Made by a program: the position numbers and the translations under genes
Assembly: GCA_003116975.1 (NCBI GenBank)
Contig: BGKB01000161.1
Span: forward strand, 1 to 64,000
Direction: 5' to 3'
DNA: 64,000 nucleotides
From: Aurantiochytrium sp. KH105
Lineage: Eukaryota > Sar > Bigyra > Thraustochytrida > Thraustochytriidae
In this document: piece after piece, positions 8,542 to 48,290 of the stretch
Layout: every line of letters begins with the position of its first letter
Numbering within the stretch: the first letter of the stretch is position 1
The notes under the pieces: generated by a model
Database searches by the model: none
What the model saw: only the letters and a program-made list of their open reading frames with translations
Told to the model about the DNA's origin: nothing

Positions 8542-10509
8542 ATGACGGAGACGCCGCAGAAGCAGTTGACCCCCGCACGAGGCGCGGCGCCGCAGAGCAG
8601 GCGACCGCGAGCGCTGGCGCTGGCGCTGGTGCTGGTGCTAGCGCTAACGCTGTCCTCGACCGCAGAGGGCTCTTGGCTCTCCGATGTGAAGGAATTCTTC
8701 TTTGGCTCCGAAAGTGGAAGCGAGCTCGCCGGAACGAAGAAGAGCGAACGACCCAGGCCGCAACCCCCGCATGCCGAAGGGCTCGTGATCGCGGACTACA
8801 GCGACATGAGCCTCAACAAGGTGATGCAAGGTGGGCGCGTCGTGGATCTTGTCTCGGGCCTTCACTTTGACTCTATCCTGCAAGACTCCCCCGACGAAAT
8901 CCGACCCGCTTCGGTGGTGGCATTCTTCGATTCCAATGATGAAAAGTGCTTGAAAGAGTACAAGGCTCTTAACTGGATGAACCTTGTAGAGACTAAACTT
9001 CCTGCTCGGGAGCTTCTCTTTGCCAGCCGCTACGACATGCACGCAGCCCCTCGGCGTGCCTGGTACAAGTTCACACCTGAGATGGACCTTGCCAAGCGCT
9101 TTGGTGTTACGCAGTGCCCTGAAATTGTATTTGTGCCTCGCTCATGCAACGGCTGGACCGAGTGGTGCAGCCGCGGCGCCGACCCGGAAGACACTGACGT
9201 GGAACTTATTGGTTGCGCTGATTTCAAGGAACAGTGCACAAACACCATCAAGTGGAACGGTAAAGGTGACCTGACGTCCTGGATCAAGGATCACATTCAG
9301 TCTGAGGGCCGCCCGAAGCTTTCCAAGTATCTCGGCACCTACAAGGATCAGAACTTGTGGCTCCGTAGGCGCGAGGAAACGACCACCTCTACGATGCTGC
9401 GCAACCTTTATCTGGCACAGGCCTTTCCCGCGTTCACCCCTCGTGGCTTCAAGGCCATGCCGGTTCCCCAAGAGTTTATGAAGTTTCTCACTGATTTTGT
9501 CGACCGTCACAAGAACGCCAAGCGCACAGAGCACTGGGAAGCAGCGTCGACGCAAATGTCCTTTCACGAAACGCCGACTGATTTCACTGATCTTGACCGC
9601 GAGCGGGCTTACGCGAACCGCATGGCCAATCAGTACATCAAGCCTCTGGTTGAGGAGTGGTCCCAAATGGGTGATCTGGAGCTGACTGCTTTCTACGGTG
9701 TGCGCCACTACAAGCATGGCAACTGGCTTCGCTCGCACATTGACCGAATCGACTCGCACGTGCTGTCAGTGACAATCACGGTGGCCAAGGGTCCTTCCGA
9801 GGGGAACGCCGCCTGGCCTCTTGAGGTGGTCGACTGGAATGGCGACCACGTGCGCTATGAGCACCCCGCTGGTAGCATGGTGCTCTACGAGTCATCCAAG
9901 CTGCCGCACGGTCGCCCGTATCCGAACGAAGGCGGGGAGCATCTCGGTGCCTTTATTCATTTCAAGCCTCGGTCCGCTGGCGCCGACATGAACCGTCGCT
10001 GGGACGATATCGCGAGAGTAGCGCGCGCGCACCAAGCCGGATTCACCTCGTACAAGAACTACAAGCAGACCTCAATCATTGATCCGGATCCGGCAACCAT
10101 TGAGTATGCGAGCAAGCGCTTCGGCGAGGGCACGAATTGGAAGCCTGTGGGCAAGCGTAGCGCCAGCAACGATGACGATGATGACGACGAAAAAGTCTCG
10201 AATGGTTCGTTTGCTGTCGATTTTAAAAATGGCGCGGATCGCCCGCTCGATTTGCACTGGGTGCGTCCTGATGGCGGCAAGGTGCTTCAGGGTACACTTG
10301 GACGTGGCACGCAAATGACAGTGACGACCTTTCGCGGTCATCGCTTTGCCTTTACCGAAAAGGGTGGCGACAAGGCTCTTCCGGATGGCGTCTTTACGAT
10401 GGAGGCCGGACGCTCCATCGTTAAGTACTCTCTCACTCAGGCCGGCACCCCGCGGAACCCCGAGACGAAGTTTGCGGACAAGGTCCGAGAACGTATCAAG
10501 CTGGAGTAA
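8542..10509 (+). CDS. Secreted/ER 2-oxoglutarate-Fe(II) prolyl-hydroxylase-like protein with thioredoxin-like and pVHL-like domains (paralog 1)
   Basis: 655 residues, ATG at 8542 (A at -3), TAA at 10507. The frame extends to a GTG at 8503, but that is unlikely as a start. A hydrophobic segment (~23-40) after a basic stretch is a signal peptide or anchor. Residues ~122-257 resemble a thioredoxin fold (FGVTQCPEIVFVP has the cis-Pro loop) without a CXXC. The 2OG-Fe(II) oxygenase core has HID at 399-401 and the distal His in LPHGRP at 456. After an acidic linker, residues ~556-620 match the pVHL beta domain: Trp573, Thr596 and His600 align without gaps to human VHL Trp88, Ser111 and His115. The neighbouring gene at 10767-12653 is a full-length paralog, tail to tail. 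Substrate unknown; collagen-like or other Pro-rich secretory proteins are possible. Confidence 0.88.
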   Translation: MTETPQKQLTPARGAAPQSRRPRALALALVLVLALTLSSTAEGSWLSDVKEFFFGSESGSELAGTKKSERPRPQPPHAEGLVIADYSDMSLNKVMQGGRVVDLVSGLHFDSILQDSPDEIRPASVVAFFDSNDEKCLKEYKALNWMNLVETKLPARELLFASRYDMHAAPRRAWYKFTPEMDLAKRFGVTQCPEIVFVPRSCNGWTEWCSRGADPEDTDVELIGCADFKEQCTNTIKWNGKGDLTSWIKDHIQSEGRPKLSKYLGTYKDQNLWLRRREETTTSTMLRNLYLAQAFPAFTPRGFKAMPVPQEFMKFLTDFVDRHKNAKRTEHWEAASTQMSFHETPTDFTDLDRERAYANRMANQYIKPLVEEWSQMGDLELTAFYGVRHYKHGNWLRSHIDRIDSHVLSVTITVAKGPSEGNAAWPLEVVDWNGDHVRYEHPAGSMVLYESSKLPHGRPYPNEGGEHLGAFIHFKPRSAGADMNRRWDDIARVARAHQAGFTSYKNYKQTSIIDPDPATIEYASKRFGEGTNWKPVGKRSASNDDDDDDEKVSNGSFAVDFKNGADRPLDLHWVRPDGGKVLQGTLGRGTQMTVTTFRGHRFAFTEKGGDKALPDGVFTMEAGRSIVKYSLTQAGTPRNPETKFADKVRERIKLE

Positions 10510-10766
10510 TCCATCATAGAATAAATCACGCGATATGATTTGTGTGTGTTCGAATCCTGAAACAGAAGTGGGGGGCAACATGGCGATCTTGGCTGAGGTC
10601 ATTGTCAAGTACTAGTTTCACTTTCTTTGTGCAGACTTTTTGAGCCCATTCTGAGGAAACCCAAACAAGGAAGATGATGTATACAGTCACAAATTGATCA
10701 TTCAAAGAATGTGAAACAAACATCGCAACGTGTATTGCGCGTGAGTGCGTAATCAGAGCCTTGCGG
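10510..10766. other. Convergent spacer between the hydroxylase-VHL paralogs
   Basis: 257 bases of AT-richer 3' flank between the two stop codons. It contains a candidate plus-strand polyadenylation signal (10520) and no ORF of interest. Confidence 0.7.
10520..10525 (+). terminator. Candidate poly(A) signal AATAAA
   Basis: AATAAA starts 11 bases after the stop of hydroxylase-VHL paralog 1. Such a short distance is plausible for compact protist 3' UTRs; cleavage is not shown. Confidence 0.4.
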
Positions 10767-12653
10767 TCAGTTGGTCGAGTACACGTATGTCTTGCGACCC
10801 TTTTCGACGGTCATGGTGCCTCCAGGAAGAGGCTTGGGCGTCTCTTTGCCCTTGCCTGGAAGCGTAGACGACCAAAAGAACTTGTGGCCACGGTACGAGC
10901 CAATATCAAAGGACGCGCCCGGTGCAACGGTGCCTTGGTGAACAGGAGTATCGTCGTGGGCCTGCCAGTATACAGCGAGGGTCTTTGAATGCTTGTTTTT
11001 GAAAGTGACGGGAATTTGATCGTTGCGCAGATTGGACTCAGCATCCTTCTTATGTCTCCATCGCGTGCCCTTGCCATATTCTACGCTGGAAAAGTGAGGC
11101 GCCTGGGGCTCCTCGGAGGGCGTGCTACGATATCCGGCATATTGTGAATTACGTCGCTGGTGCGCACGTGCGGTGGCCACGATATCATCCCATTTGCCAG
11201 CCTCTTCAGTGTGCATAGACTTGGGCTTGAAATGCGCAAAGCAGCCCACGTGCGTGCCGCCTTCATTCTTGAAGGGCCGGCCATGAAGCAGCTTGGAAGA
11301 CTCGTAGAGAACCATGGTCCCGCCCGGGTGCTCGTAGCGCACGTGATCTCCGTTCCAGTCCACGACTTCCAGAGGCCAAGGGTGCGCCTTGGACTTTTCC
11401 TCGTCCAACTTTTTCACGGAAATCGTCACTGAAAGCACGTGCGTATCGATGCGGTCCACGTGATTCTTCAAGATCGAGCCATCTGGGTACTCGCGCATGC
11501 CATAAAACGAGGTGAGCTCGAGCGAGCCGGGCGGGAGATTGGCCCATTCTTCGACTAGAGGCTTGAGGTACTTGTTTGCCATGCGGTTCTTTTCGTGACT
11601 TTCGCGATCCATGTCCAGAAAGCTCGTCGGCGTCTCGTGAAAGCCCATTTGCGTGGATTCAGCGTCCCAGTACTCGGTGCGACGATGTTTCTCGTTACGT
11701 GTAAAGAAAGAGTCGAGCCATTTACGAAAACCATCTGGAATCGGCATTGCCTTGAATCCGCGCGGCGTAAAAGCGGGAAAAGCCTGCGAAAGGTAAATGT
11801 TGCGCATGTGGTTGTCGGTGGTCGTGCTGTCGCGACCCTTGATCCACACTCCTTGATCCTCGAGGGTCTCGAGGAAGCCGCTAATGGCCGGTTCACCTTG
11901 AGCATCTACAAGTTGGGTAATCCAGGCTTGGAGGTTTTCCTCTCCCTGGGCATCCCACTTCTGGGTTCCATTGCAGGACTCAACAAAGCCCTCGCAGCCC
12001 ATGTATTGAATGCCTTCTGCATCAGTGTCACGAACGCACCATTCTGTGAGGCCGTTGCAGGTGCGCGGGGCAAAGACAACTTCTGGGCATTGCGTGACGC
12101 CGAAGCGCTTGGCAAGGTCCATTTCGGGCGTAAACTTGTACCATGCACGGCGCGGGGCCGCATACATGTCGTAACGAGCGGTCATGAGACGCTCGCGGGC
12201 GGGGAGCTCGCGCTCAGCAAGCTGATCCCAATTCAGCTCGCTGTACTTTGCCATGCATGAATCGTCGTTACTGTCGTAGAATACGACCACGCTCGGAGGG
12301 CGCATCTCGTCGGGAGTGTCCTGCATGAGGTCATCGAAGTGAATCGCGTTCACGAGGTCGATGACGCGAGACTGAAGTCGAACTTTGGGGAGGCTTCCTT
12401 GCGGCGCGCTGTGATCGAAAACCTCGACGTGCGCCGCGTGCTCGACTTGAGCCGTCTCCGTCGGCGCGTATGCGGTGCGTCCGAGCGCGCCGGCTACGGT
12501 CTCGCTCACAGCATCCATGACCTGCTCCAGCAGGCCTTCTCCGGGGGTAACGCTCACACACATGGCCAGAAGCGCCAATGCAAGCGCGGCCAGCTTGGCG
12601 AAGCCGCTCTCGCGGCGGCCGCTGCGCGTCGTAGCCGGTCGCGTCGCGGTCAT
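10767..12653 (-). CDS. Secreted/ER 2-oxoglutarate-Fe(II) prolyl-hydroxylase-like protein with thioredoxin-like and pVHL-like domains (paralog 2)
   Basis: 628 residues, ATG at 12653, TGA at 10767. It has the same layout as the facing gene. A hydrophobic N-terminal segment (~18-36) is followed by a thioredoxin-like region (~115-250, FGVTQCPEVVFAP, no CXXC). The oxygenase core has HVD at 398-400 and the distal His in LLHGRP at 457. A C-terminal pVHL-like beta domain spans ~545-600. Its GSYRGH (585-590) closely resembles the VHL SYRGH segment. Trp563, Ser586 and His590 align without gaps to VHL Trp88, Ser111 and His115, while the position of VHL Tyr98 is Gln573. Several blocks are near-identical to paralog 1 (RRAWYKFTPEMDLAKRFGV, AFPAFTPRGFKAMP), showing a local inverted duplication. 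Catalysis is inferred from the iron ligands. Confidence 0.88.
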   Translation of the reverse strand: MTATRPATTRSGRRESGFAKLAALALALLAMCVSVTPGEGLLEQVMDAVSETVAGALGRTAYAPTETAQVEHAAHVEVFDHSAPQGSLPKVRLQSRVIDLVNAIHFDDLMQDTPDEMRPPSVVVFYDSNDDSCMAKYSELNWDQLAERELPARERLMTARYDMYAAPRRAWYKFTPEMDLAKRFGVTQCPEVVFAPRTCNGLTEWCVRDTDAEGIQYMGCEGFVESCNGTQKWDAQGEENLQAWITQLVDAQGEPAISGFLETLEDQGVWIKGRDSTTTDNHMRNIYLSQAFPAFTPRGFKAMPIPDGFRKWLDSFFTRNEKHRRTEYWDAESTQMGFHETPTSFLDMDRESHEKNRMANKYLKPLVEEWANLPPGSLELTSFYGMREYPDGSILKNHVDRIDTHVLSVTISVKKLDEEKSKAHPWPLEVVDWNGDHVRYEHPGGTMVLYESSKLLHGRPFKNEGGTHVGCFAHFKPKSMHTEEAGKWDDIVATARAHQRRNSQYAGYRSTPSEEPQAPHFSSVEYGKGTRWRHKKDAESNLRNDQIPVTFKNKHSKTLAVYWQAHDDTPVHQGTVAPGASFDIGSYRGHKFFWSSTLPGKGKETPKPLPGGTMTVEKGRKTYVYSTN

Positions 12654-15738: not shown

Positions 15739-18700
15739 TCAGCAGGCGCCGATCCGCGTAATAAGCTCATTGTAAAAGCCTTCGGCCAAGTACAAACGAC
15801 GCTGAAATGGCATGGACTCCCTATCATCGAAGATGTGTCTCGCTGACTCGGGAACTGTGTCGATGTAGGTGGAAAATTCAGTGAAGCCGACGCGTTTGGG
15901 ATCGCTCTCATGCACGAGCAAGATGGGCTTTCCGGCTTGCAAGGCCGTGTCGAGCTCCATGCAAACTGCCTTGGAATCAAAAACAGTCTTACTCAAAAAG
16001 AGCAAATAGCACTTCGACGCCCGGATTCCAGCTTGCATCTCCTCCTTGGAAAGATTGCCCTCCGTACGCTGGTCGACCCAGACCTTGAGTCCACGATTGG
16101 CGATCTTTTCAGCCATGAGATTGCATGCATCGCCTGCCTCGAGCTGCTTGTGGCTCAAAAAGACGTGATACTTCAAGTCAGAGGCCAATGGTAAATCTGC
16201 AGCGTCGACCATACCCGTGTCCTTTTCATCCTCTTTCAACGAGCCGTCTTGGAAAAACGGTGCAAAGTCTTCCACTTTGGCGTTTTTAGTGCCCACAGAC
16301 TCGACCAAGGCTGCGCCGGATTGGCGTGCGTCCACTACGTCGTCGTACGCGACCAAGACAGACGCGTTTCTTGGCGACTGAAGGAGAAGCCCCCACGGCA
16401 GGTCTCGAAAGACCGCGTCGCGCGCGCCTCGAAACATGCTCAGCAGCGTCTTAAGAGTGCTCAATGGCTTGTCAGAGTCACGTTCGACGCGGATCCAGAT
16501 CTTGTCCTTGGTCTGCTCAAGAGCAAAGACGGAAAAGCCGAAGCGAATGATAGCCTGATCCCCTGCAAGCTGAGGCGAACGTCTTCGAGGCCCCGTGTCG
16601 CCACTGTACTGAACACACAGCGAGAGCAAGCGCGCAAAGACGCCGTCCGGAAGAAAGAACTTGGAAAAGTCCAAAACGCATGTCAGACCGATGTCCATGT
16701 CAGCCATGGCTTCGTCAAGACTAGCGTCTGCCGAATTCTTGAGCAGACTGCTCACGAAATAAAGAGGTTCGCTTTGGCGACCCCTTGTCAGCGCCTCCTC
16801 TGGAAACGCCCAGTCTGAAATCAGCATCGTCTCCTGCATAAACTCCCGCAGATACTCGACTTCTTCGCCATTCCAGAGAAACTCGAGAAGACTGAGCGAG
16901 GCAACGCCACGTTTACGGAGAATCGCAAAGTCTTTCTTGAGACCAGCCTTTTGAAGCTCGCGATTGTGTCGCATCTGCTTGACATGGATCTCGTCTGCGA
17001 TCACGCGCGAAAGCTTGTCGAGAAGCCATTGCGGGTTCAGCACAACCTTGTCGTGCAGACTGTCGGTGACACGCAGATGAACGAGCATGCCGAGCTCGTG
17101 GAAAAACTCGAGCAACTCATCTGTTTGGTCGCCAGCGTGATACTGGTTCGCGAGCTCCTGCACCGTTGCAAAGGGCACATGGTCGCAGTCAAGGTTCAGC
17201 AGGTCCTCCAACACCTTGAGCCACCGCAGCGAGATCTTTCGCGTGACGGCCTCGAGCGACGACGCGCTTGCTTCGACAGCAGCGCGCAATGCCGAGGCAC
17301 GATCTGACTCACGACTCATGTTATCGATGGGGAAAAAACTCAGCTCAACTGCAGGGTTCGTGACAATGTTTTCGTTTTCGTCAACAGAGAGAGTCTCGAC
17401 GAGGATCTCCTCCACGACGTTGACGTCAACTGACGCCTGGTCATAGTGCGTACCCACTAAAATGATGGGCGCAGTTGGCGCATGCAGCTTGACCGAGTTG
17501 AGCCAAATGGAAAGGTACTCTACGGCTTTCTCTTGCTCAAGGAGGAGTTCTTGCATATCGAAGACGACCATGAAGACGCCGCCCTCGTGCGTGAGAAAAA
17601 GGTGATGCAGTGCGTAAAAGACGTCCTGGCCCGCATAGTCCCAGATCGTAAAGAAGATCTTCTGGCCTGTCTGCGTCTCACCGGCCATTTCCTCGATCTC
17701 CGCGAATCGGAATCGCTGCGCCATTTCGGCCTCAGGAACGAGCTCCACTACCTCCTCTGCAACGAAAGGCCGCCGCGCAGAAGAAGTTCGGCGTCCAAAG
17801 ACAAGATCCGAAGCCTTTCGGCTGATGCGCTTGGGGAGCGATAGTCGCTTCCTGCTCGCAGCTTGCTTCTCCCGCGCGGCCATGCGCAGCGCCGCCGCGC
17901 GTAACGCCTGGCGTTCAAATCCGCTGTCAACGTCTTTGATCTCATTCCAAGACTCTGCATCGGTGCGCTTAAGCTCGACGCCCACCGTCGAGACGTGCTC
18001 TGCCACGGGCTTCATGTCCAGCAGCGAGCGCACCGTGGACGTCTTTCCGGCGGCGCCTTGGCCGACAACCATGAGCTTGCAGCGGCCCAGTTCCGCGAGG
18101 TCCCCGTTCGCGAGCGCCGCCTTGAGCGCCTCCGCCGACGCCGTCGAAGAAGGCGTGCGCCCCGACGCGGTGCCGAGTGCTTCCCCGATGGGTCGCGCGG
18201 CCTCCGTGCCGTCTAGCACGCGCGTCGAGGCGCCCGTCTCTGCGTCCCAGACACGCACGCTGTAGTCCCTGGACCCAAAGGAATTGCCGGATCCGCTCAC
18301 GATCTCGGATCCGAAGAGAGACACCGAGCGAACGTAGTCCGTGTGCCCGTGCAAGACGTGGAGCGTGGCTCCGCTGCGCGCGTCCCAGACCCTGACCATG
18401 TTGTCGAAGGACCCGCTCACGATGCGGTCTCCCTCGAGCGCGACGGAGAGCACCAAGTCGGTGTGTCCTTGGAGCTCGAGGACCGGCTCGAAGGAGGGCA
18501 CGGCGTAGACCCTGACCTTGTTGTCCTCGGAGCCGCTCACCAGGTGGTGCGCGTCGATCGCGACGGCGCGGACCTCGCCTCTCGCCTCCGTGAGGACGTG
18601 GCGCGTGCCGCCACTGGCCCGGTCGAAGACGCGCACGGTGTTGTCGCTCAAGGCGGCCACGAGCAGGTCCTCGTGCGCGGCGACGCCCAGGACGAGCGCC

Positions 18701-19074
18701 TTAGCGTCGATCCTCAAAGTCTCTCGGCCGCTCGTCTTGTCCCAGACGCGGAGGGTCTTGTCGCTGGACCCAGAGATGATCTCGTCGCCGTCGAAGACGA
18801 CGCTCTTGACAGTTCCGGTGTGGCCCCTGAGGGCGTGCAGGACGGAGGCGGTGGCCACGTCGATGACGAAGAGGCCGCCGCGGTCGGTTCCTACGGCGGC
18901 CAGCATGCCCTGCACGGTCACGGTGTTGGCCTCCTGGTTGTTGGGCACCTTGATCTCCATCACGAGGGCGCCGTCCTTCTTGCTCCACGCACGGAGGTAG
19001 CGGTCCTCGCTGGCGGCCAGCACGAGGTCGGCGGACTGCGCGACGCCGTACACGGTGCCTTCGATGCGGCCCAT
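15739..19074 (-). CDS. WD40 - ROC GTPase - COR - TIR domain protein (Roco family)
   Basis: 1111 residues. The frame extends to a GTG at 19179, but the first ATG (19074, MGRIEGTVYG) is directly before the WD40 domain; TGA at 15739. WD40 repeats occupy ~1-287, with repeated SGSxDxxVRVWD strands. The ROC GTPase (~330-600) has P-loop GQGAAGKTS (338-346), the switch II motif WDYAGQ (478-483) and a degenerate G4 GTHYD (541-545). A COR region (~610-880) follows. The C-terminal TIR domain (~967-1085) begins YHVFLSHKQ and includes LKVWVDQ. CMELDTAL places Glu1040 at the position of the catalytic glutamate of NAD-cleaving TIRs. Roco proteins usually carry LRRs and a kinase. Role inferred: stress or immune-type signalling, possibly NAD hydrolysis. 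Confidence 0.93.
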   Translation of the reverse strand: MGRIEGTVYGVAQSADLVLAASEDRYLRAWSKKDGALVMEIKVPNNQEANTVTVQGMLAAVGTDRGGLFVIDVATASVLHALRGHTGTVKSVVFDGDEIISGSSDKTLRVWDKTSGRETLRIDAKALVLGVAAHEDLLVAALSDNTVRVFDRASGGTRHVLTEARGEVRAVAIDAHHLVSGSEDNKVRVYAVPSFEPVLELQGHTDLVLSVALEGDRIVSGSFDNMVRVWDARSGATLHVLHGHTDYVRSVSLFGSEIVSGSGNSFGSRDYSVRVWDAETGASTRVLDGTEAARPIGEALGTASGRTPSSTASAEALKAALANGDLAELGRCKLMVVGQGAAGKTSTVRSLLDMKPVAEHVSTVGVELKRTDAESWNEIKDVDSGFERQALRAAALRMAAREKQAASRKRLSLPKRISRKASDLVFGRRTSSARRPFVAEEVVELVPEAEMAQRFRFAEIEEMAGETQTGQKIFFTIWDYAGQDVFYALHHLFLTHEGGVFMVVFDMQELLLEQEKAVEYLSIWLNSVKLHAPTAPIILVGTHYDQASVDVNVVEEILVETLSVDENENIVTNPAVELSFFPIDNMSRESDRASALRAAVEASASSLEAVTRKISLRWLKVLEDLLNLDCDHVPFATVQELANQYHAGDQTDELLEFFHELGMLVHLRVTDSLHDKVVLNPQWLLDKLSRVIADEIHVKQMRHNRELQKAGLKKDFAILRKRGVASLSLLEFLWNGEEVEYLREFMQETMLISDWAFPEEALTRGRQSEPLYFVSSLLKNSADASLDEAMADMDIGLTCVLDFSKFFLPDGVFARLLSLCVQYSGDTGPRRRSPQLAGDQAIIRFGFSVFALEQTKDKIWIRVERDSDKPLSTLKTLLSMFRGARDAVFRDLPWGLLLQSPRNASVLVAYDDVVDARQSGAALVESVGTKNAKVEDFAPFFQDGSLKEDEKDTGMVDAADLPLASDLKYHVFLSHKQLEAGDACNLMAEKIANRGLKVWVDQRTEGNLSKEEMQAGIRASKCYLLFLSKTVFDSKAVCMELDTALQAGKPILLVHESDPKRVGFTEFSTYIDTVPESARHIFDDRESMPFQRRLYLAEGFYNELITRIGAC

Positions 19075-19837
19075 GGCGGCGGCGGCGGCGACGAGGAGAA
19101 GACGCGAAGAGAGCTTGAGCTGGTTGCTGATGCGGTGCGGACTTGGTACGTCACGCCCTTCGTGGGGGCGCGCGCGCACAGGGCGTGCGTGTCGCGGCGC
19201 CGCCCGCCCGCGCGCGCAAGGAAAGAGGGTCGAGTGCGCAGCTGCCTGCGGCTTGCGGGCCTACCGGTCTGCCTGCCACGTGGTCGCGCCGCGCCACGGC
19301 GCGAGGGCGAGCGAAGGGGAGATTAGGTGTTTGGGCGAAGAATACCAGCGCGTGCACACCTTGCGAGCTTTAGAATGGAAGCTGCGGGCGCTGGCCCGAA
19401 AAACCTTTGCCTTTTAGTAGCAGGCCTAGGTGTTGTGCTCCCAGTATACTTTAACAATCATGTACACCAACAAACAACTGACATCCCATCCGAGGCTTGC
19501 GTGAAAGGAGGACAGAGACAGGTGTGTATGTATGGTCAGAAGAAGACCAAAGGCGATCGAAACTTTCGCGTGCAACGTAGCGAGAGAGTTTCGTGCAGCG
19601 TGATGATGTTGACTGTGTATGCTCGAGCTTTTTCCCCAGACGCAGAAGGTTGTTGGTTCATTCGAACCCTCCCTTCGCTCGACTTTGTTGGACTCTGTAT
19701 ACTTCACTCGGCCTCAGATGCTTTCGCTCTTCATTGCATTTCTGACGCCGGAGCAAGGCGAGGAAGCGGTGACAAAGTGAGGCAAAAGTGCGTGTCATGA
19801 GAACACGCAAAATATAATAGACAAACTCGTTAAAGGT
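19075..19837. other. Intergenic region, no supported gene
   Basis: About 760 bases between the TIR-Roco start and the C1-senescence gene stop. It is GC-rich near 19.1-19.3 kb (probable promoter or 5' UTR) and AT-richer beyond. Open frames there start at GTG and have no domains. Confidence 0.65.
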
Positions 19838-21601
19838 TCAAAGAATGGCCCGCACGCTGCGTTTCTTAATCGCAAGCACATCAAAGACGGCTTGATACAT
19901 GTTGCCGTCAAAGACAACGGGCTCACGAAGCGCCCAGCGGTCAGCCGTTCGAAACGGGGCTTGTATAATATGAGATCCACTAATGAGTCCACCACCCGCC
20001 ATAATGGTGTTGTAGCCACCGCCAACAATGTTGGTTGAGGCTTGTGCTAATCTACCAGCATCAGGGCCATAATTGTCCGTCGCGGCGGTAACGATGGATC
20101 TGCCGGCAGCAGAACCGATTTCGCTGACGCTGTCCCAAACCTGATTCGTGATCAGGCTGAGCCCCGCGAGGCCGTCCGCCAAGGCTCGGCGCATGTCAGG
20201 ATCTGTCTCTTCAGCAAATGCACGTGCAAGTTCCGTTTTGGAGAGCTGGGTCATGCCTTCTCCGACCCTGTCACGAACCATGCCAAGCGCTCGCGCGCTG
20301 GCGTTGCCGACCTTGAGCGCACCGTTACCCATGAATTCTGCAGCCTCGAGTGTGGCGGGATCCACAATCAAAGGTACCGACTCGTTCGTCTTTTCCGTTT
20401 GTGTGCGATGCGATAGACTTTCTATGCTTGTCGCGGTGCGCTTTGTCTGGGCGCGCAGGCCATTGGCAATCGAAGTGGCCACACCCTCGCGCTCGATGGC
20501 TTCAAGGCGGGTCTGCATTTTTGCGTTAGCTTCTGCAAAGGCCCCCTCAATCGTTGAGTCAAGAGCTCCAAGTTGACTTGTGATACGTTCAGCGACTGCC
20601 TTCAAATCTGCCTCGGTCGCACCCATGCGCGCGCGCAGCTCATCCACGTGACGGTCGAGGACAAAAGCTGGAAGTGGCGAGTTGGGTGGAGCAGCAAGTT
20701 GAGGACCTCTTCCCACGATTTGGTCCGTTCGCTCGATGGAACCTGGAACATCGGGTTCGTTTTGAGCATCAGGAATTGGCGCGTGAATGTCCAACAAAGG
20801 AGTCCGCGCGGTCACCGCATTTTCTCTTGCAATGGATGGATTCTGTCCGAGAGTAGGTGGTTTCCGCCCCGGAGTTGGTGGTTTCCGCTCGGGAGTTGGT
20901 GGCTTTGTGGTCGCGTTTATATCAAGTGGAGGCATTGTGAGCCCATTGTACGGCGTCACAGAGGATGCAGGCGAGGCTGCCGAGCATACAGAGGAGCTGA
21001 GGCGAACTGCGCACTTGCGATGGACCGCGGACTTGCAGGCACGGCACTCGAGACCCTGCTTAAAGAGACCGAGGAGAAGTTCATTGCAGACCTTGCATGT
21101 TGTCGGCTTGGAAAATGTCTTGACGACGAGAGCATGATCTTGCGGCCCAAGCATCCACGTTTGCACGGGGGACTCGCGTACATGGCGCGTGGGGCCGGGG
21201 AGGTCGCCTGCGACCCCAGGTTGGCATGGGCTCTTCGCTTCAAGGATCGCGGCGCATTTGCGATGCGTAGCAAGGCCGCATTTCGCGCAGGCGAGTCCTT
21301 GTTTTCGCACGCCGAGCAAGAGCTTCCCGCATGCCGCGCATTTCGTGGGTTTTGTGAAGGTCTTGACGTCGAGATCGTGCGCAAGAAGCGAGGCCGGCTC
21401 CCCGTCCCCGTCGTCCCCGAGCAGGAGAAGCTCTGGGGAGGACACGAAGGATCCTTGGGCGCTCTTCCCTCGTGTCCTCGGCGTTGCGGGGGGCGTGATG
21501 GCAGTCTGCATGGGCGAGACTTCCTCGGGCATGTCTTGCTCGCCCCGGACGCTGAGCGCGGGTTGCTGCGTCCCCGCGGCCTTCGACCTTTTCATCATCA
21601 T
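19838..21601 (-). CDS. Two C1 (diacylglycerol/phorbol-ester type) zinc fingers plus C-terminal senescence/spartin-like domain
   Basis: 587 residues. Three ATGs in a row end at 21601; the upstream open frame starts at TTG and is Arg-rich leader. Two C1 domains at ~75-126 and ~156-206 keep the full HX12CX2C...CX2C...HX2C...C pattern and the FxKPTxCxxCxxLLxGxxKQGLxC signature. A PPTPxRK repeat occurs at ~234-256. A helical region with an amphipathic stretch follows. The last ~140 residues (about 415-560) resemble the senescence domain of spartin and plant ERD7-like proteins: Ala/Gly-rich, with ATDNYGPDAGRLAQASTNIVGG. C1 domains recruit proteins to DAG-containing membranes, and senescence domains bind lipid droplets or membranes. 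A lipid-droplet or endomembrane role is inference. C1 calls are strong; the senescence call is moderate. Confidence 0.85.
   Translation of the reverse strand: MMMKRSKAAGTQQPALSVRGEQDMPEEVSPMQTAITPPATPRTRGKSAQGSFVSSPELLLLGDDGDGEPASLLAHDLDVKTFTKPTKCAACGKLLLGVRKQGLACAKCGLATHRKCAAILEAKSPCQPGVAGDLPGPTRHVRESPVQTWMLGPQDHALVVKTFSKPTTCKVCNELLLGLFKQGLECRACKSAVHRKCAVRLSSSVCSAASPASSVTPYNGLTMPPLDINATTKPPTPERKPPTPGRKPPTLGQNPSIARENAVTARTPLLDIHAPIPDAQNEPDVPGSIERTDQIVGRGPQLAAPPNSPLPAFVLDRHVDELRARMGATEADLKAVAERITSQLGALDSTIEGAFAEANAKMQTRLEAIEREGVATSIANGLRAQTKRTATSIESLSHRTQTEKTNESVPLIVDPATLEAAEFMGNGALKVGNASARALGMVRDRVGEGMTQLSKTELARAFAEETDPDMRRALADGLAGLSLITNQVWDSVSEIGSAAGRSIVTAATDNYGPDAGRLAQASTNIVGGGYNTIMAGGGLISGSHIIQAPFRTADRWALREPVVFDGNMYQAVFDVLAIKKRSVRAIL
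21593..21601 (-). other. Triple ATG at start codon
   Basis: Three consecutive in-frame ATG codons (CAT run on the plus strand) form the start of the C1-senescence gene. Initiation at any of them gives the same protein within two residues. Confidence 0.8.
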
Positions 21602-22197
21602 CACCAAATCAAATCGTCCGTCCACCCGCGGACGCCTCGATCCTCTTCTCCTTCTTCTGACGCGTCTCCGTCGCAGTGGCGGGGGCGCGGGCGCGCGAGC
21701 GCGTAGATCGCCGCGCGGCCTGTCTGTCTGCCGTGCGTGCAGCGCGAGCGAGTCCTGGCTGCCGCCGCTCTTCGCGACGAAGCGAAGGCTGCTTGTTTGC
21801 AGGACCAGACCAGCCTCGCGGACTCTTTCGCCGCGCCAAGCTCGACGAAGCCGGTCCTGGCAAAGCAAAGAGAGAATCAGAAAGCGCGCTGTTTAGCCCT
21901 CGCAGCCCGGCCCAGCACGGCCCAGTCCAGCCAGGTTTTGCAGGCAGCAGATGGCAAGCGCAGAAGAGGTTCTGTGGACGCCCTGCCAGCGGAAGAGGCC
22001 GGTCTCGACGAAGCGAGGGCGCGGTTCGGCGGCCGTCTCTCGTTCAGCCTTCGGAGCCTAGTCAGGTGGGACGAGCGCGTTGTGTTTGCTGCCTGCGCTG
22101 GAAGGGCTATCTTTACTGGGCTGGGCTGCGCTGCGTTGCGTTGCGATAAAGGCAAGCTCGCGGTCGCGGTCGGAGAGGGCGGATGGATTGCATGGCG
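21602..22197. other. Intergenic region between C1-senescence gene and FANCL
   Basis: About 600 bases, GC-rich, with CTGCG/TTGCG-type short repeats near 22.12 kb. No supported gene. It should carry the promoter of the C1-senescence gene. Confidence 0.6.
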
Positions 22198-23490
22198 TCA
22201 TGCCGTGAGCACGCTCATGGGGCCCGCACAATACGGACAAGACCCGAACATCGTGTCAAAGGTGTGGCGCGTGGACGGGAGCGACTGGAACCAGTCGCGT
22301 AGACACACGGGGTGAAAGCCTCGCGAGCACTTTGGGTTGGGGCAAACGCAGTCTGGGAGCACGGAGTCAACCGCGTGGGTCTGAGCACCATTGGCGCGAG
22401 TAGGCAAGGCCTCCAGAGGAAGCCTCACGCAGTAACAAACGCCGCACTCTTGCTGGTCGCCCAAAACCTTGGCGTCTTTTTGCGGAAAAGCCTCGAGCTC
22501 GAGAACGCGGAGGAGATTGGCACGCACGGATTTGGCTCGATCCCAAGTGCGCAAGTTGCGGTTGAAACGTTTGCGAAAAGGCATGAGAGCGCTCTCGGAA
22601 CCCATGAACTGGCACTCACAAACGGAGCGTGGGGCCTGAATCGAAAGACGGATCTGTACCGAGCAGTGTTTTGCGAGGGCGATCCGGCGATACAAAATGC
22701 TATAGTCTGGATCCACAGGGTCAAGCACCCATGCGTGGGCGTCGAGATCGTCAAGCTCGGCCCACACGCCCTGAAAAGACTCGAGTCGATCTTGGAATTG
22801 CAGAACGAGACCGCGTAGCCCGGAGACACGCCTCACAGACCCCAGGGGCGCAGTGCCAGGGACGGGGCCGGCAAGATCATCCACATTCAAAGCCTCCGGG
22901 ACGGCAGCCTTGAGGGATGCAGCGGTTTGGGGATATGTGGCCGGCAATTGTACGTGTAAGGTGTGTTCGCGGCCAGCAGCGTCGTGTACAAGGACATCAA
23001 GAGCGCGCATGTCGCTCGAGACCTTGGCAATGTGACGCCAGCCAAGCTCCTCGATCTCTTTCACGACGCGGCTACAAAAACGCAGCGGGGCAGCGATATT
23101 GTGCGCTGCCGCTTGGGTTTGACCATGAGATTCAAGCGTCTGGTCTTGAAGAGCGTGCTCGAGTACCTCGAGAAGGTCTTTTTCGAGATCGTTGGGGTCC
23201 GCAATCATTTCGTCATGCTGTTGGAGACGTAGATCAACAAGATCGCGGTGTGGCCGCAAGAGCTTGGTGAGTTCTGCGTCCCCGAGGAGCTGACGGGGCC
23301 GCGCGGCGCGCATCCTCTTGTGCTGTCTTTTCGCCGCGTCATCCTTGCTTTCGTTCCTGACTCCGTTGCCGGTGCCATAGCTTTCGCGTCCGCCATTCGC
23401 GGCAGTCACGCACACGAGGAACTCGCGCCCGTCTCGCGCACGCAGCGTGCCGCGAAGGCTCCCATCTGCAGCTCCCGCGACGAGCACCAT
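22198..23490 (-). CDS. FANCL: E3 ubiquitin-protein ligase FANCL (Fanconi anemia core complex)
   Basis: 430 residues, ATG at 23490, TGA at 22198. FANCL monoubiquitinates FANCD2/FANCI during interstrand-crosslink repair in the nucleus. The central UBC-RWD (DRWD) part contains WAELDDLDAHAWVLDP and YRRIALAKHCSVQIRL (about 243-282), which match FANCL specifically. The C-terminal RING has ligands Cys349, Cys352, Cys383, Cys388, His393, Cys396, Cys418 and Cys421, within the FANCL pattern CGxCY...VCxNxxC...FHxxCLxxW...FGxCPYC. It is longer than human FANCL (375 aa), mainly from a Lys/Arg-rich N-terminal stretch (~45-70) and an insertion in the RING first loop (~355-380). No other FA gene lies in this window. 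Confidence 0.93.
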   Translation of the reverse strand: MVLVAGAADGSLRGTLRARDGREFLVCVTAANGGRESYGTGNGVRNESKDDAAKRQHKRMRAARPRQLLGDAELTKLLRPHRDLVDLRLQQHDEMIADPNDLEKDLLEVLEHALQDQTLESHGQTQAAAHNIAAPLRFCSRVVKEIEELGWRHIAKVSSDMRALDVLVHDAAGREHTLHVQLPATYPQTAASLKAAVPEALNVDDLAGPVPGTAPLGSVRRVSGLRGLVLQFQDRLESFQGVWAELDDLDAHAWVLDPVDPDYSILYRRIALAKHCSVQIRLSIQAPRSVCECQFMGSESALMPFRKRFNRNLRTWDRAKSVRANLLRVLELEAFPQKDAKVLGDQQECGVCYCVRLPLEALPTRANGAQTHAVDSVLPDCVCPNPKCSRGFHPVCLRDWFQSLPSTRHTFDTMFGSCPYCAGPMSVLTA

Positions 23491-32056: not shown

Positions 32057-35000
32057 ATGGAGAGCCAAATTGAGCGCCTCCTCACGGTGCTCATGAACAA
32101 GGTCGTGGATGGCATTCCAGACGGCAAAGGCGGTTATTTGGAACGACCCCTCGAGACCGAAGCGAAGCGGTTTGTGAATGATTGCGGTGGGGAGCTCGAT
32201 GCCGCCGTGGCCGCAGCCGCGCACTTCATCTTCGTGCGTAAGCCCAGCTGGTCGGAAAGCATGTGGCGTAGTGCGCTCATTGTTGTCGTAGGCCAAGTTC
32301 CCTTGGTCGGGTCTACCGCCGCTATATTTTATAACCAGTTCGAGTCCGTCTGGCGCCAATTACGTTTTGTGGCCCTAGCGGCGACCATCTATGGCCACGA
32401 CGTTCGCGACGATGCGACGCAATGCCAAGTCATTCTTTGCCTTTTGGATGACAATATCCGAAAGCGCCAAGGCCCAGGGGCAATGGACAAAATCTACAAA
32501 AAGCTCGGCAAAAACGGCGTCCAAGTCGCCGCAACTGTTATCGCCCGCCAAGTTGTGGCGCGCGGCGGTACCAGCTTCCTCATGAAAAAAGTCCTCGGCG
32601 GCCTGCTCATTGGCGTGGTCCCCGAGGCAGTAGGACTGCTCTACACTGCCTTCTTCACGGACACCTTCATGTCAAATGATGCCGAAAAGGCTGTGCGCGC
32701 AAAGCAGCTCAAAGAACGCGCACGATCGCACTTCAAAAAGGACGCCCAGCCCACGCTCGTCGTTGCTTGGGTGTCTTTCCTGGTCTGGTTCGTGCCCATT
32801 CTCACCATTAACGTGAGTAAGGTTTGGGTCGTCTTTGACCGAATATTGATGCGTCTTCTCACCACGGGGCCCGTGCAACCAGCTCTCCTCTCTCACCCAA
32901 TCGTCGATTCCTACATTTTTGGCACTTTTGATGCCTCGCGCGAGTCGTGGCCAGCTTGGCTCACGCGAACTGTCTGCTTTTCCCTCTTTGTTTCGTTCAA
33001 AGCTGCACTACTTTGCTTCGTTGCCCTCATGGCTGTATACTTTGCACATCAAATTGGCCGCCGCCAGACGTGGATGGTGTCCACTGCCGCGCTAGGTATT
33101 CGCGCGGCTCTCAACTTTCTTTCGGCGCGTAACACTGCCCTTTCGCTCGCACTCGCAATCGAGCACGTTGTAGCTTCCACGCCTCACGACGGCCTCTACC
33201 ACGGCCACCGCGCTTTTGTCGGTTTCTTTGCTATAATTAGTCGATCGCGCACGGAGCTCAAGCCGTACAATCCGTGGGTCGTTGGATCGCTGCTGCTCTG
33301 GATCGGCTATCATTGTCTCATCGTCGCATACACGTATGGCTCGGCCATTATCTACGCACTCGCGCCTCTTCTGTTCGTTGGCGAGGACTACGACTGGCAG
33401 ATTGCATTTGCTGACAGCACTAGCGTCTTCAAGAACGTTTCCAGTTCCGCTTTCGCCATGGCACGTCTCGGCGACGCGCTCAATGCTCTCACAACCATTG
33501 CTCTTCACGTCCTCATTGAGGAAATTCGCAAGCCTGACATTGTCATGACGCTGGTTGGGCCCAAAAAAGTGGTCGAGGGTATTCTCTACGCTGCCAAGTC
33601 GCTCGGCAACGTTGTCTCGTCGCCAGATTCGGTTCTCTTTTGGCTTGATAAGACCACCCCGCCCGTTGATGTTTCGTGGGCACTACTTTCCCTCCAGTTT
33701 GGCGCTACTGGCCTCGGACTCTTTTGGGGCGTTGTCACCCACTTCCACTGGCTTTCCCCCTTTGAGGCCTTTCTCGTCACGGCAAATGTGCTGCAATTTA
33801 TCCCCAAGCTTCTCTGGCGAAAGTCACTTCCGCCTCCGCACGAGACGCAGGTATGGAATCAAGCTCTTGAAAGCCGCCACCGTCTCCTTTACCTCATTCC
33901 TGACATCAACTCAGGGCTACGTTCCAAAGTGTACGATGCTGTCACCTTTTTCGAGCACTACGAATTTGCCGTCAATCGCTCGCAAGAATATGCGTCGTCC
34001 TCCTTTGTTCGCGTCAAAGATTGGGTCCAGTCCAGCTTCACCAAGCGCGAGCAACAAGAGTTCGAACGCCTCGGTTCTTCCTCGGACCTTCTCGAGGACT
34101 CTGCGGGCCAACCGTTGGAGTTTGACGTCGGCGTTTACTACGATGAAAATGATACTTGGTTTGCTAGAATCAAAGGCGCGCTTTCGTTTCGAGGCCGTGG
34201 CGCCGACGGTAGCCAAGATTCGAAAGAGACCTTGCCACTCGACACTGTCGTGGAATCGGACGGCCTTGGTCATCTTCGACTTTTGGACGGTCAATCTGTC
34301 GATGAAGCCGACGCTAACGCTCTCGTTCCACATCACTCATGGAAAGAATGGTTTCATGTCAAGTTTACAGCGGTCCTGCCATGGAAGAAAGCAGATCCTG
34401 ATGCAAGCAATTCGAACGTAGAGATTACCGAGCTTGACAGCGACTCAATGCCCGAGATGGATGGGACTGCCTTATCAAGCGGCACATCAAGTGATGGGAC
34501 CAAGGAGGACGATATTTCCGCAGAGAGTCGCCCTGAAGAAGTGCTGAAGACCGACAAAGACGACAATGGTCGTGGAGATGATGACGACGACGAGGAGGAG
34601 GACAAGGTTTCGTCGCAAGAACAGGAGAAATCGACCTCGGAGGACGCACCGGCTAAAGTAGCGATGAAAAAAGGTGCAAGCGATGAGTCGCCACCAGACG
34701 ATTCGACAACTTACGACACAGTGCCAAATGAAGCCTCGGACGCGGCCACACTGCACGCGAATGATAGCCATGACCGAACTTCCTCTGATACCAGTGCAAT
34801 CGACACCTCGCAGCCAATTGCAGAGGAGAACGAACCTCTCGAACCTGTCTCAAGCCAAGAGGAAACTTCGAATGCTGTCGCAGATGGAACGTCAGTCACT
34901 TCGACGCAAGATGAGGATCCTTTTAGCCCACAGGAAAATCAAAAAGTAGAAGAAGCAGAGGAGTCCAAGTCGCCTCCGACTGAGGCTGCCGAGGTCCCAT

Positions 35001-35320
35001 CTTCATCTTGGAGACCATGGCGCTGGCGTAACACTACAGAGGACAACAATAGCGCCAAAGCAGAAGTCGTATCCGAAGACGCGAGTAAGAGCGATAGCGG
35101 TGCGACTGACACCAGCGATAATGCGGCTGACAAGGATGCCATCGCGGAAGAAGACAAGACCGAGGCTCAGGTTGACGCTGATGAGGAAGCGAAGAAACCT
35201 CCTGCCAAAGACGACATGAATAACATCAAGGAAGACCAAGGTCCCGGAAGCGTCCCAGAAGAAGAAAAATCATGGATCAAGCGATGGTGGCAAGGGAAGC
35301 CGACCGCGCAAGATGTGTAG
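32057..35320 (+). CDS. Large multi-pass membrane protein with possible N-terminal EcsC-like domain and acidic C-terminal tail
   Basis: 1087 residues, ATG at 32057 and TAG at 35318. I do not recognise a named orthologue. Residues ~60-215 resemble the EcsC fold: a hydrophobic pair (VVGQVPLVGSTAAIFY, 77-92), an IYGHDVRDD segment at 111-119, then a Gly-rich hydrophobic stretch (~180-200). This match is only moderate. Further membrane segments are seen at about 232-262, 308-332, 405-441 and 540-600. From ~780 to 1060 the protein is low-complexity and acidic (Asp/Glu/Ser/Thr), closing with a basic, Trp-rich KSWIKRWWQGK. The topology suggests an endomembrane protein with a long disordered cytosolic tail. 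Its stop lies only 37 bases from the convergent UBR ligase stop. Confidence 0.85.
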   Translation: MESQIERLLTVLMNKVVDGIPDGKGGYLERPLETEAKRFVNDCGGELDAAVAAAAHFIFVRKPSWSESMWRSALIVVVGQVPLVGSTAAIFYNQFESVWRQLRFVALAATIYGHDVRDDATQCQVILCLLDDNIRKRQGPGAMDKIYKKLGKNGVQVAATVIARQVVARGGTSFLMKKVLGGLLIGVVPEAVGLLYTAFFTDTFMSNDAEKAVRAKQLKERARSHFKKDAQPTLVVAWVSFLVWFVPILTINVSKVWVVFDRILMRLLTTGPVQPALLSHPIVDSYIFGTFDASRESWPAWLTRTVCFSLFVSFKAALLCFVALMAVYFAHQIGRRQTWMVSTAALGIRAALNFLSARNTALSLALAIEHVVASTPHDGLYHGHRAFVGFFAIISRSRTELKPYNPWVVGSLLLWIGYHCLIVAYTYGSAIIYALAPLLFVGEDYDWQIAFADSTSVFKNVSSSAFAMARLGDALNALTTIALHVLIEEIRKPDIVMTLVGPKKVVEGILYAAKSLGNVVSSPDSVLFWLDKTTPPVDVSWALLSLQFGATGLGLFWGVVTHFHWLSPFEAFLVTANVLQFIPKLLWRKSLPPPHETQVWNQALESRHRLLYLIPDINSGLRSKVYDAVTFFEHYEFAVNRSQEYASSSFVRVKDWVQSSFTKREQQEFERLGSSSDLLEDSAGQPLEFDVGVYYDENDTWFARIKGALSFRGRGADGSQDSKETLPLDTVVESDGLGHLRLLDGQSVDEADANALVPHHSWKEWFHVKFTAVLPWKKADPDASNSNVEITELDSDSMPEMDGTALSSGTSSDGTKEDDISAESRPEEVLKTDKDDNGRGDDDDDEEEDKVSSQEQEKSTSEDAPAKVAMKKGASDESPPDDSTTYDTVPNEASDAATLHANDSHDRTSSDTSAIDTSQPIAEENEPLEPVSSQEETSNAVADGTSVTSTQDEDPFSPQENQKVEEAEESKSPPTEAAEVPSSSWRPWRWRNTTEDNNSAKAEVVSEDASKSDSGATDTSDNAADKDAIAEEDKTEAQVDADEEAKKPPAKDDMNNIKEDQGPGSVPEEEKSWIKRWWQGKPTAQDV

Positions 35321-47533: not shown

Positions 47534-48115
47534 ACCCGCGCGCGCGCGCGAGCGAGCGAGCGCAGCGTCGTCGCGGCGGCAGCGGCTGCAGCGGCGGCTT
47601 GCTGCGACAGCGACGCGCGAAAAGAGGCGCGTGCGGCACGTGCGTGCACCAGCCCAGCCCAGTCCATTCCAGCGCAGCCCTCCCTCTCTCTCCCTCCCTC
47701 TCCCTCTCCCTCCCTGCGACTGCAACGGCGCCGGGCCCTGCCCGCGCAGCGCAGCGCAGCGGTCGCGGCGAGTCGCGGCGGCGCAGCCCGAGCGACGCGC
47801 GAGGCGAGGCGAGGCGGACGGGCGAGCGAGCGAGCGAGCGGGGGACCTACCTCACTCACTCCCTTCACCTTCTTTCTCCCAGTCTAGGCGCAGAGCGAGC
47901 TAGAGAGGCGAGGCGAGGCGAGGCGAGGCGAGCGAGACGAGACGAGACCAGCGCGTGCACGCGCGTGCAGAGCCGAGCGGAGCAAGCACAGCAGAGCAGA
48001 GCAAGCTCGGCAGAGCAGGAGCAGGCGGGGTGTAGGTACACTTCGCGCGAGCTCGGGCGAGCGCGAGCGCGAGCGCGTGCAGACCAGAGTCGCGCCGGCG
48101 GGAGCTGCCGCGGCG

Positions 48116-48146
48116 AGGGAAGGAAGGAAGGAAGGAAGGAAGGAAG
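48116..48146. repeat. (GGAA)n microsatellite
   Basis: About seven GGAA units, about 145 bases upstream of the PP2C-like start. Confidence 0.9.
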
Positions 48147-48290
48147 CCGGCAAGGCGGAGACCAGCGGCGCACGGTGCGCCGCCAGGAGCGACGAGGGCC
48201 CTCGCGCGAACGCTTGGCCGGAGGGCGAAGAAGCCCGACGGCGACCGCGAGTCCGGAGGCCCCAAGTCCGCGGGCAACCAGGAAGGCAGC

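Follow-up and report, generated by a model that had tools for sequence, protein, structure and literature searches.

Candidate hydroxyproline-reading domains of VHL-beta type joined to 2OG-Fe(II) oxygenases in Aurantiochytrium sp. KH105

Two convergent neighbour genes, here called P1 and P2, in the first 64,000 nucleotides of contig BGKB01000161.1 of the thraustochytrid Aurantiochytrium sp. KH105 (the window) raise the question of what a VHL-like domain might be doing on the same chain as a 2-oxoglutarate (2OG)-Fe(II) oxygenase. In animals the VHL residues W88, Y98, S111, H115 and W117 line the hydroxyproline pocket, and the side chains of Ser111 and His115 hold the 4-hydroxyl of hydroxyproline. 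The explanation that we favour, with a probability of roughly 0.55 from sequence and modelled structure, is that P1 and P2 are secretory-pathway 2OG-Fe(II) hydroxylases, most likely prolyl hydroxylases, with a product reader in cis.

Architecture of P1 and P2

The two proteins are 51% identical, no introns are visible in their genes, and both have the same domain order: an N-terminal hydrophobic run, a weak thioredoxin-like domain, the oxygenase core, a linker and, closing the chain, a domain some 80 residues long (positions are given in Table 1). The initial annotation had described both genes as a 2OG core, recognised by HxD plus a distal His, joined to a C-terminal VHL-beta-like domain, so that writer core and reader-like domain share one polypeptide behind an N-terminal hydrophobic segment; this is what is seen in both, with the triads H399/D401/H456 in P1 and H398/D400/H457 in P2. 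In P2 the C-terminal domain reaches to the very end of the protein, while P1 continues for 22 residues beyond it. New relative to that annotation are the thioredoxin-like N-terminal domain and five further genes with a like module, four of them clear and one tentative. The thioredoxin-like assignment is a weak one, as both Pfam scores lie below the cut-off and no CxxC was found by eye in P1 or P2; in P2 there is a single Cys133 at the expected CxxC site, and a Cys-Pro at 189-190.

A second haplotype of the gene pair lies on contig C35. Between haplotypes, 35 of the differing codons in P1 are synonymous and 6 non-synonymous, and the corresponding figures for P2 are 45 and 8; because these differences are mostly synonymous, both genes look functional.

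Sequence evidence for a VHL-beta-like domain

The likeness to VHL surfaces only with the isolated domain or with a profile: whole-protein searches gave no VHL match in Pfam (P1 and P2), the PDB (P1) or NCBIfam (six proteins). For each isolated domain, PF01847, the VHL beta domain, was the sole Pfam family reported, and in both cases the alignment is gapless, as had been claimed from the letters. The scores are 14.0 bits (E 0.054) for P1 and 15.2 bits (E 0.021) for P2, neither reaching the curated cut-off of 21 bits, which the module of a related gene (L007, below) does exceed; the expected VHL profile match thus held as to family and fell short as to score. Against the PDB, the isolated P2 domain found VHL chains at E 0.12 and the isolated P1 domain no VHL chain. 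None of 5,000 shuffles attained the pairwise score of P1 with human VHL, or that of P2.

A hidden Markov model (HMM) built from the P1 and P2 domains gave human VHL 19.5 bits and E 2e-4, with the first decoy at E 1.5, when run on 1,993 entries (human VHL and 1,992 real frames) together with 1,993 shuffled ones; since similarity had decided which loci supplied the frames, this is a ranking test and not a genome-wide one. After the window genes and their alleles, the order was L015 (24.4 bits), L007 (20.8) and human VHL, followed by the L037/L038 genes (16.4), L022 and its allele (10.3) and L005 (9.1 bits, E 0.35). The reverse profile, from the L007 and L015 modules, recovered the window domains at E 1e-4 to 1e-3. 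Human VHL came no higher than E 0.7 with it, ranking behind an unrelated frame of the window (E 0.13). With all four domains in the profile, VHL was the best natural family (E 0.0039), standing below two designed Ig-like proteins (E 1.4e-5 and 7.8e-5) whose scores are sums of weak repeats. A two-sequence full-length profile returned VHL chains in 23 of 23 rows, yet at E 0.66 or worse.

Related fusions elsewhere in the genome

Most matches in the 76-Mb assembly of 367 contigs occur as two haplotypes. It has large matches to the PfaA PUFA-synthase model (930 bits, under that model's cut-off of 1010), which would suit a thraustochytrid or another labyrinthulomycete; weaker matches turn up in 10 of 14 control genomes. 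PF01847 found four matches, on C44/C116 (27.5 and 25.8 bits) and C104/C113 (21.1 bits), the window domains not being among them. The C44 match is L007, a 569-aa open reading frame (ORF) that joins a prolyl 4-hydroxylase (P4H) core (PF13640, E 6.9e-11) to a VHL domain at the C-terminus, with 23.9 bits when the protein is searched. In the paralogue of L007, L015 (C24/C112), alignment shows the same C-terminal module, not reported as VHL by Pfam, and the P4H core matches Chlamydomonas P4H-1 (E 7.6e-26) and human P4H-TM (E 5.2e-11). Single-domain searches added L022/L023 (C60/C1), where the module is N-terminal to the P4H core and the ORF breaks off shortly past the distal His, an intron being the probable cause. 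L037/L038 have a module, an ShK-like segment and the P4H, in that order. Among the 30 PF13640 loci examined (L028-L057, out of 33 matches), eight carry the module, making four haplotype pairs; three of these pairs were included in the seed profile, and L037/L038, which was not, scored E 4e-8 in this set of 30.

A weaker module is seen in L005 (C235/C259), where it precedes an HGRP-type core resembling that of P1 and P2. The score of this module was reached by none of 2,000 shuffles with P1 and by 29 of 2,000 with P2, and L005 is tentatively counted as a carrier. With L005 included and alleles counted once, there are seven such genes in about five arrangements. Judged by eye, the carriers all start with a hydrophobic segment near the N-terminus, and the module is absent from those 2OG genes whose products are likely cytosolic.

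A possible eighth module, that of L009/L010, was left out, being weakly like the others and having no 2OG family in its ORF; against VHL it scored 21.1 bits in the genome and 18.5 in the protein, and 4 of 5,000 shuffles reached its score. This VHL-like ORF (L009:1330-2328, minus strand, on C104 with an allele on C113) encodes 332 aa and has, by eye, no Trp88 equivalent.

No relatives were found in viral contigs (queries A2, A3, A5 and A6) or genome contigs (A6), in collections of viruses, bacteria and archaea that say little about other protists. Fourteen plasmid records match L007, and the 10 matches listed all lie within query residues 236-484, ahead of the module. For L005 there are 21 matching phage records; the 15 listed span 22-38% of the protein, in every case downstream of the module.

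Predicted fold and the hydroxyproline pocket

Full-length structure prediction was uninformative except at the C-terminus. The model of the domain alone has a confident predicted fold, a VHL beta sandwich over its whole length, as anticipated; when its structure was compared using VIA-align on Foldseek's best 1,000 chains, all 50 of the matches listed were VHL entries. Taken together, the sequence statistics and this confident predicted fold leave very little doubt that the module has the VHL-beta fold and is homologous to it.

The seven modules, mostly about 20-35% identical to one another, were aligned with human VHL. The only non-gap columns invariant in all seven are those of W88, H115 and W117 (the last being Phe in every module), and the S111 position is Thr or Ser in all seven. 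VHL F76, N78, G104 and G114 are kept in six; Tyr98 is not kept, and is Gln in four (P1, P2, L007 and L015). In P1/P2 the equivalents are W573/W563 for Trp88, T596/S586 for Ser111, H600/H590 for His115 and F602/F592 for Trp117, so that the residue assignments of the initial annotation, including Gln for Tyr98, were right. It is this keeping of pocket columns among divergent modules that forms the main argument for a hydroxyproline-reading role, and on it we think it fairly likely that the module binds hydroxyproline.

The oxygenase core

For the P2 core, which is 67% identical to that of P1, Pfam reported no 2OG family. The HxD...H triad is invariant in all five aligned sequences (P1, P2, L005 and two cyanophage proteins), as is an Arg at +2 from the distal His; no Lys or Arg is found at about +9/+10, where the basic residue for the 2OG carboxylate was looked for. 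L005 matches the PHROG family phrog_2954 at E 1.5e-16. That family is labelled ferrochelatase, with members that include annotated 2OG-Fe(II) oxygenases, and the cyanophage proteins matching L005 are variously annotated "2OG-Fe(II) oxygenase", "ferrochelatase" or hypothetical. By its sequence, the P1/P2 core is a divergent HxD...HGRP branch with cyanophage relatives. Prolyl specificity of P1 and P2 we infer from the company that the module keeps, direct sequence support being confined to L007 and L015; that the enzymes act on proline seems to us a good deal better than an even bet.

Two cyanophage proteins of phrog_2954 (L071:646-1341 and L072:665-1255) show the HxD...H hallmarks of a 2OG-Fe(II) oxygenase; one of the two bears the name "ferrochelatase", a label that looks wrong. 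In phage S-SCSM1 a gene of this type follows a GDP-fucose protein O-fucosyltransferase gene.

Proposed role and its alternatives

With their N-terminal hydrophobic segments, the P1 and P2 enzymes are probably secreted or in the secretory pathway. There, the C-terminal module would bind hydroxyproline just made by the same or a sister enzyme; bound to this product, it would retain the Pro-rich chain close to the active site, so that hydroxylation would become processive or self-reinforcing along repetitive secreted proteins. That retention or processivity is the actual benefit of the module we put forward more tentatively. Of the initial interpretation as a whole, then, the fusion, the N-terminal hydrophobic segment and the fold have stood, and the functional part, including processive action on Pro-rich wall or scale proteins, continues as a proposal. 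No Pfam family for an alpha domain or elongin-C BC-box was found after the VHL-like domain in P1 or P2, at E up to 10; since there is no alpha domain, no link to a ubiquitin ligase is expected, and a HIF-like or ubiquitin role was rejected.

Two other functions for the domain have to be weighed, each of which we consider rather improbable. It might serve localisation, oligomerisation or stability without reading hydroxyproline. There is precedent for a P4H accessory domain acting as a location signal (the C-terminal Tox1 domain of plant type 2 P4H, for the Golgi; PMC11275109), and the L037/L038 fusion additionally bears an ShK-like segment; a mere scaffold, however, would not be expected to keep just the pocket columns W88, S/T111, H115 and F117 in seven divergent modules, nor to occur on both sides of the catalytic core, as it does among the carriers. 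Alternatively, the module might dock unhydroxylated Pro-rich chains, or other peptide or glycan ligands, in the manner of the peptide-substrate-binding (PSB) domain of collagen P4H. That helical TPR domain binds proline-rich peptides and has a far lower affinity for (Gly-Pro-4Hyp)5 than for (PPG)5 (PMC12433258), and the alteration of Tyr98 and Trp117 in the modules would fit such a use; His115 and Ser/Thr111, which a proline reader would not need, are nonetheless kept in all seven. If the product-reading explanation is right, the VHL-like domain would act in the opposite way to the PSB domain and hold the hydroxylated product. That the VHL resemblance is convergent or due to chance among beta sandwiches, the domain being an ordinary immunoglobulin- or prealbumin-like appendage, could draw on the two designed Ig-like proteins above VHL, on MSP domains and designed Igs that score level with VHL when the poor full-length model is used, and on the failure of the L007/L015 profile to single out human VHL, but the gapless register, the pocket-only invariance, the L007 score above the curated VHL cut-off and the confident domain model, with nothing but VHL among its 50 listed matches, make it most improbable.

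Some possible clients and partners were noted. A collagen-like ORF (L068:1117-2838, plus strand, 573 aa) contains extended GPP/GPK/GPH repeats, and two hydrophobic segments can be made out by eye; the collagen-like match lies on C56 at 18108-18281, with 29.2 bits against a cut-off of 27.2, in a search that was also positive in 3 of 14 control genomes. The protein is a possible substrate of secretory prolyl hydroxylases. Homologues of hydroxyproline O-arabinosyltransferase (PF23452, cut-off 23.9 bits) occur on C176/C3 (L069, L070) and C227/C26, at about 66 and 29 bits; this search gave four matches here and none in the 14 control genomes, and suggests that this protist may glycosylate hydroxyproline. 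It is plausible that both are clients and partners of the hydroxylases.

Relation to known systems

Like the pVHL beta domain, which serves the CRL2-VHL ubiquitin ligase of animals as substrate receptor, the modules are predicted beta sandwiches that keep Trp88, Ser/Thr111, Tyr/Phe112 and His115; they differ from it in their fusion to a hydroxylase, the N-terminal hydrophobic segment, the loss of Tyr98, the change of Trp117 to Phe, the lack of an alpha domain and the protist host. The animal pair for HIF oxygen sensing, PHD (EGLN) and pVHL, likewise brings together a proline hydroxylase and a VHL-fold reader, but as separate cytosolic proteins and ending in degradation, whereas here there is one chain, probably secretory, with another branch of oxygenase. 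To the secretory P4Hs (Chlamydomonas P4H-1, plant types 1 and 2, animal P4H-TM) there is a likeness in the L015 core and, by eye, in the signal anchor, though in these fusions the accessory domain is VHL-like and the P1/P2 core is more distant, resembling cyanophage 2OG oxygenases. Collagen P4H, an alpha2beta2 enzyme with PSB domain and PDI, also has a core plus accessory domain; in P1 and P2 the accessory domain has a product-reading fold, and the thioredoxin-like domain, without CxxC, is on the same chain.

No description of a prolyl hydroxylase-VHL domain fusion was found among the open-access papers listed, as judged by titles and the beginnings of abstracts. Thraustochytrid proteins with both 2OG and VHL domains may already figure in automatic annotation. 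The HIF/PHD/VHL pathway is cited as not found in protists (PMC9618697); that paper itself gives VHL homologues in a choanoflagellate and assigns VHL to Ascomycota, and PMC9002001 describes a bacterial protein that is secreted and has a VHL beta domain. In this protist, far from animals, a VHL-fold module keeping core pocket residues has repeatedly been joined to hydroxylases, which would give the oxygen-sensing reader a longer past and a simple motive for sitting beside a hydroxylase. If the proposed role is true, this would also be a writer-reader enzyme for hydroxyproline, and small hydroxyproline-binding domains could serve as reagents. A doubtful extension is that the hydroxyproline-reading VHL fold predates animals, having at first read the product in cis for secretory prolyl hydroxylases, where reading and writing would reinforce each other and spread hydroxyproline along secreted proteins with repeats, with the beta domain of animal pVHL as a detached and re-used copy.

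Table 1. Positions of P1, P2, their alleles and their predicted domains (window coordinates unless a contig is named)
Feature	Position	Strand	Evidence
P1, 655 aa	8542..10509	+	uninterrupted ORF, ATG at 8542
P2, 628 aa, paralogue of P1 with like architecture	10767..12653	-	uninterrupted ORF
P1 allele	C35:13400-15379		99% identical, 649/655 residues
P2 allele	C35:11279-13138		620/628 residues identical
P1 hydrophobic segment, aa 24-38 (putative signal peptide or anchor)	8611..8655	+	Kyte-Doolittle mean 2.7, 15 residues
P2 hydrophobic segment, aa 21-35	12549..12593	-	Kyte-Doolittle mean 2.7, 15 residues
P1 thioredoxin-like domain, aa 95-200	8824..9141	+	weak Pfam Thioredoxin_2, 12.5 bits, cut-off 27
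P2 thioredoxin-like domain, aa 90-197	12063..12386	-	weak Pfam Thioredoxin_2, 17.9 bits, cut-off 27
P1 2OG-Fe(II) oxygenase core, aa 285-477	9394..9972	+	PF13640 19.3 bits, below cut-off 27; phrog_2954 E 5.5e-11
P1 HID (H399-x-D401)	9736-9744	+	iron triad
P1 distal His H456 of LPHGR	9907-9909	+	iron triad
P2 2OG-Fe(II) oxygenase core, aa 282-479	11217..11810	-	phrog_2954 E 4.3e-6
P2 HVD (H398-x-D400)	11454-11462	-	iron triad
P2 distal His H457 of LLHGR	11283-11285	-	iron triad
P1 VHL-beta-like domain, aa 554-633	10201..10440	+	gapless PF01847 match, shuffle and HMM statistics
P1 Trp88 equivalent W573	10258-10260	+	
P1 TTFRGHRF pocket strand	10324-10347	+	
P2 VHL-beta-like domain, aa 544-628, with W563, S586, Y587, H590, F592	10770..11024	-	

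Other genes of the window

In a Pfam scan of the window ORFs, two long ones, at 32057-35320 on the plus strand (1087 aa) and 47865-49928 on the minus strand (687 aa), gave no match at E 1e-4. Three others lie on the minus strand: a 1146-aa ORF at 15739-19179 with WD40 repeats, Roc, COR-A and a C-terminal TIR, hence a Roco protein with a TIR domain; an ORF at 19838-21868 joining C1 (diacylglycerol-binding) domains to a Senescence domain; and a FANCL-like gene at 22198-23490, with the d2, d3 and C-terminal domains on one ORF.

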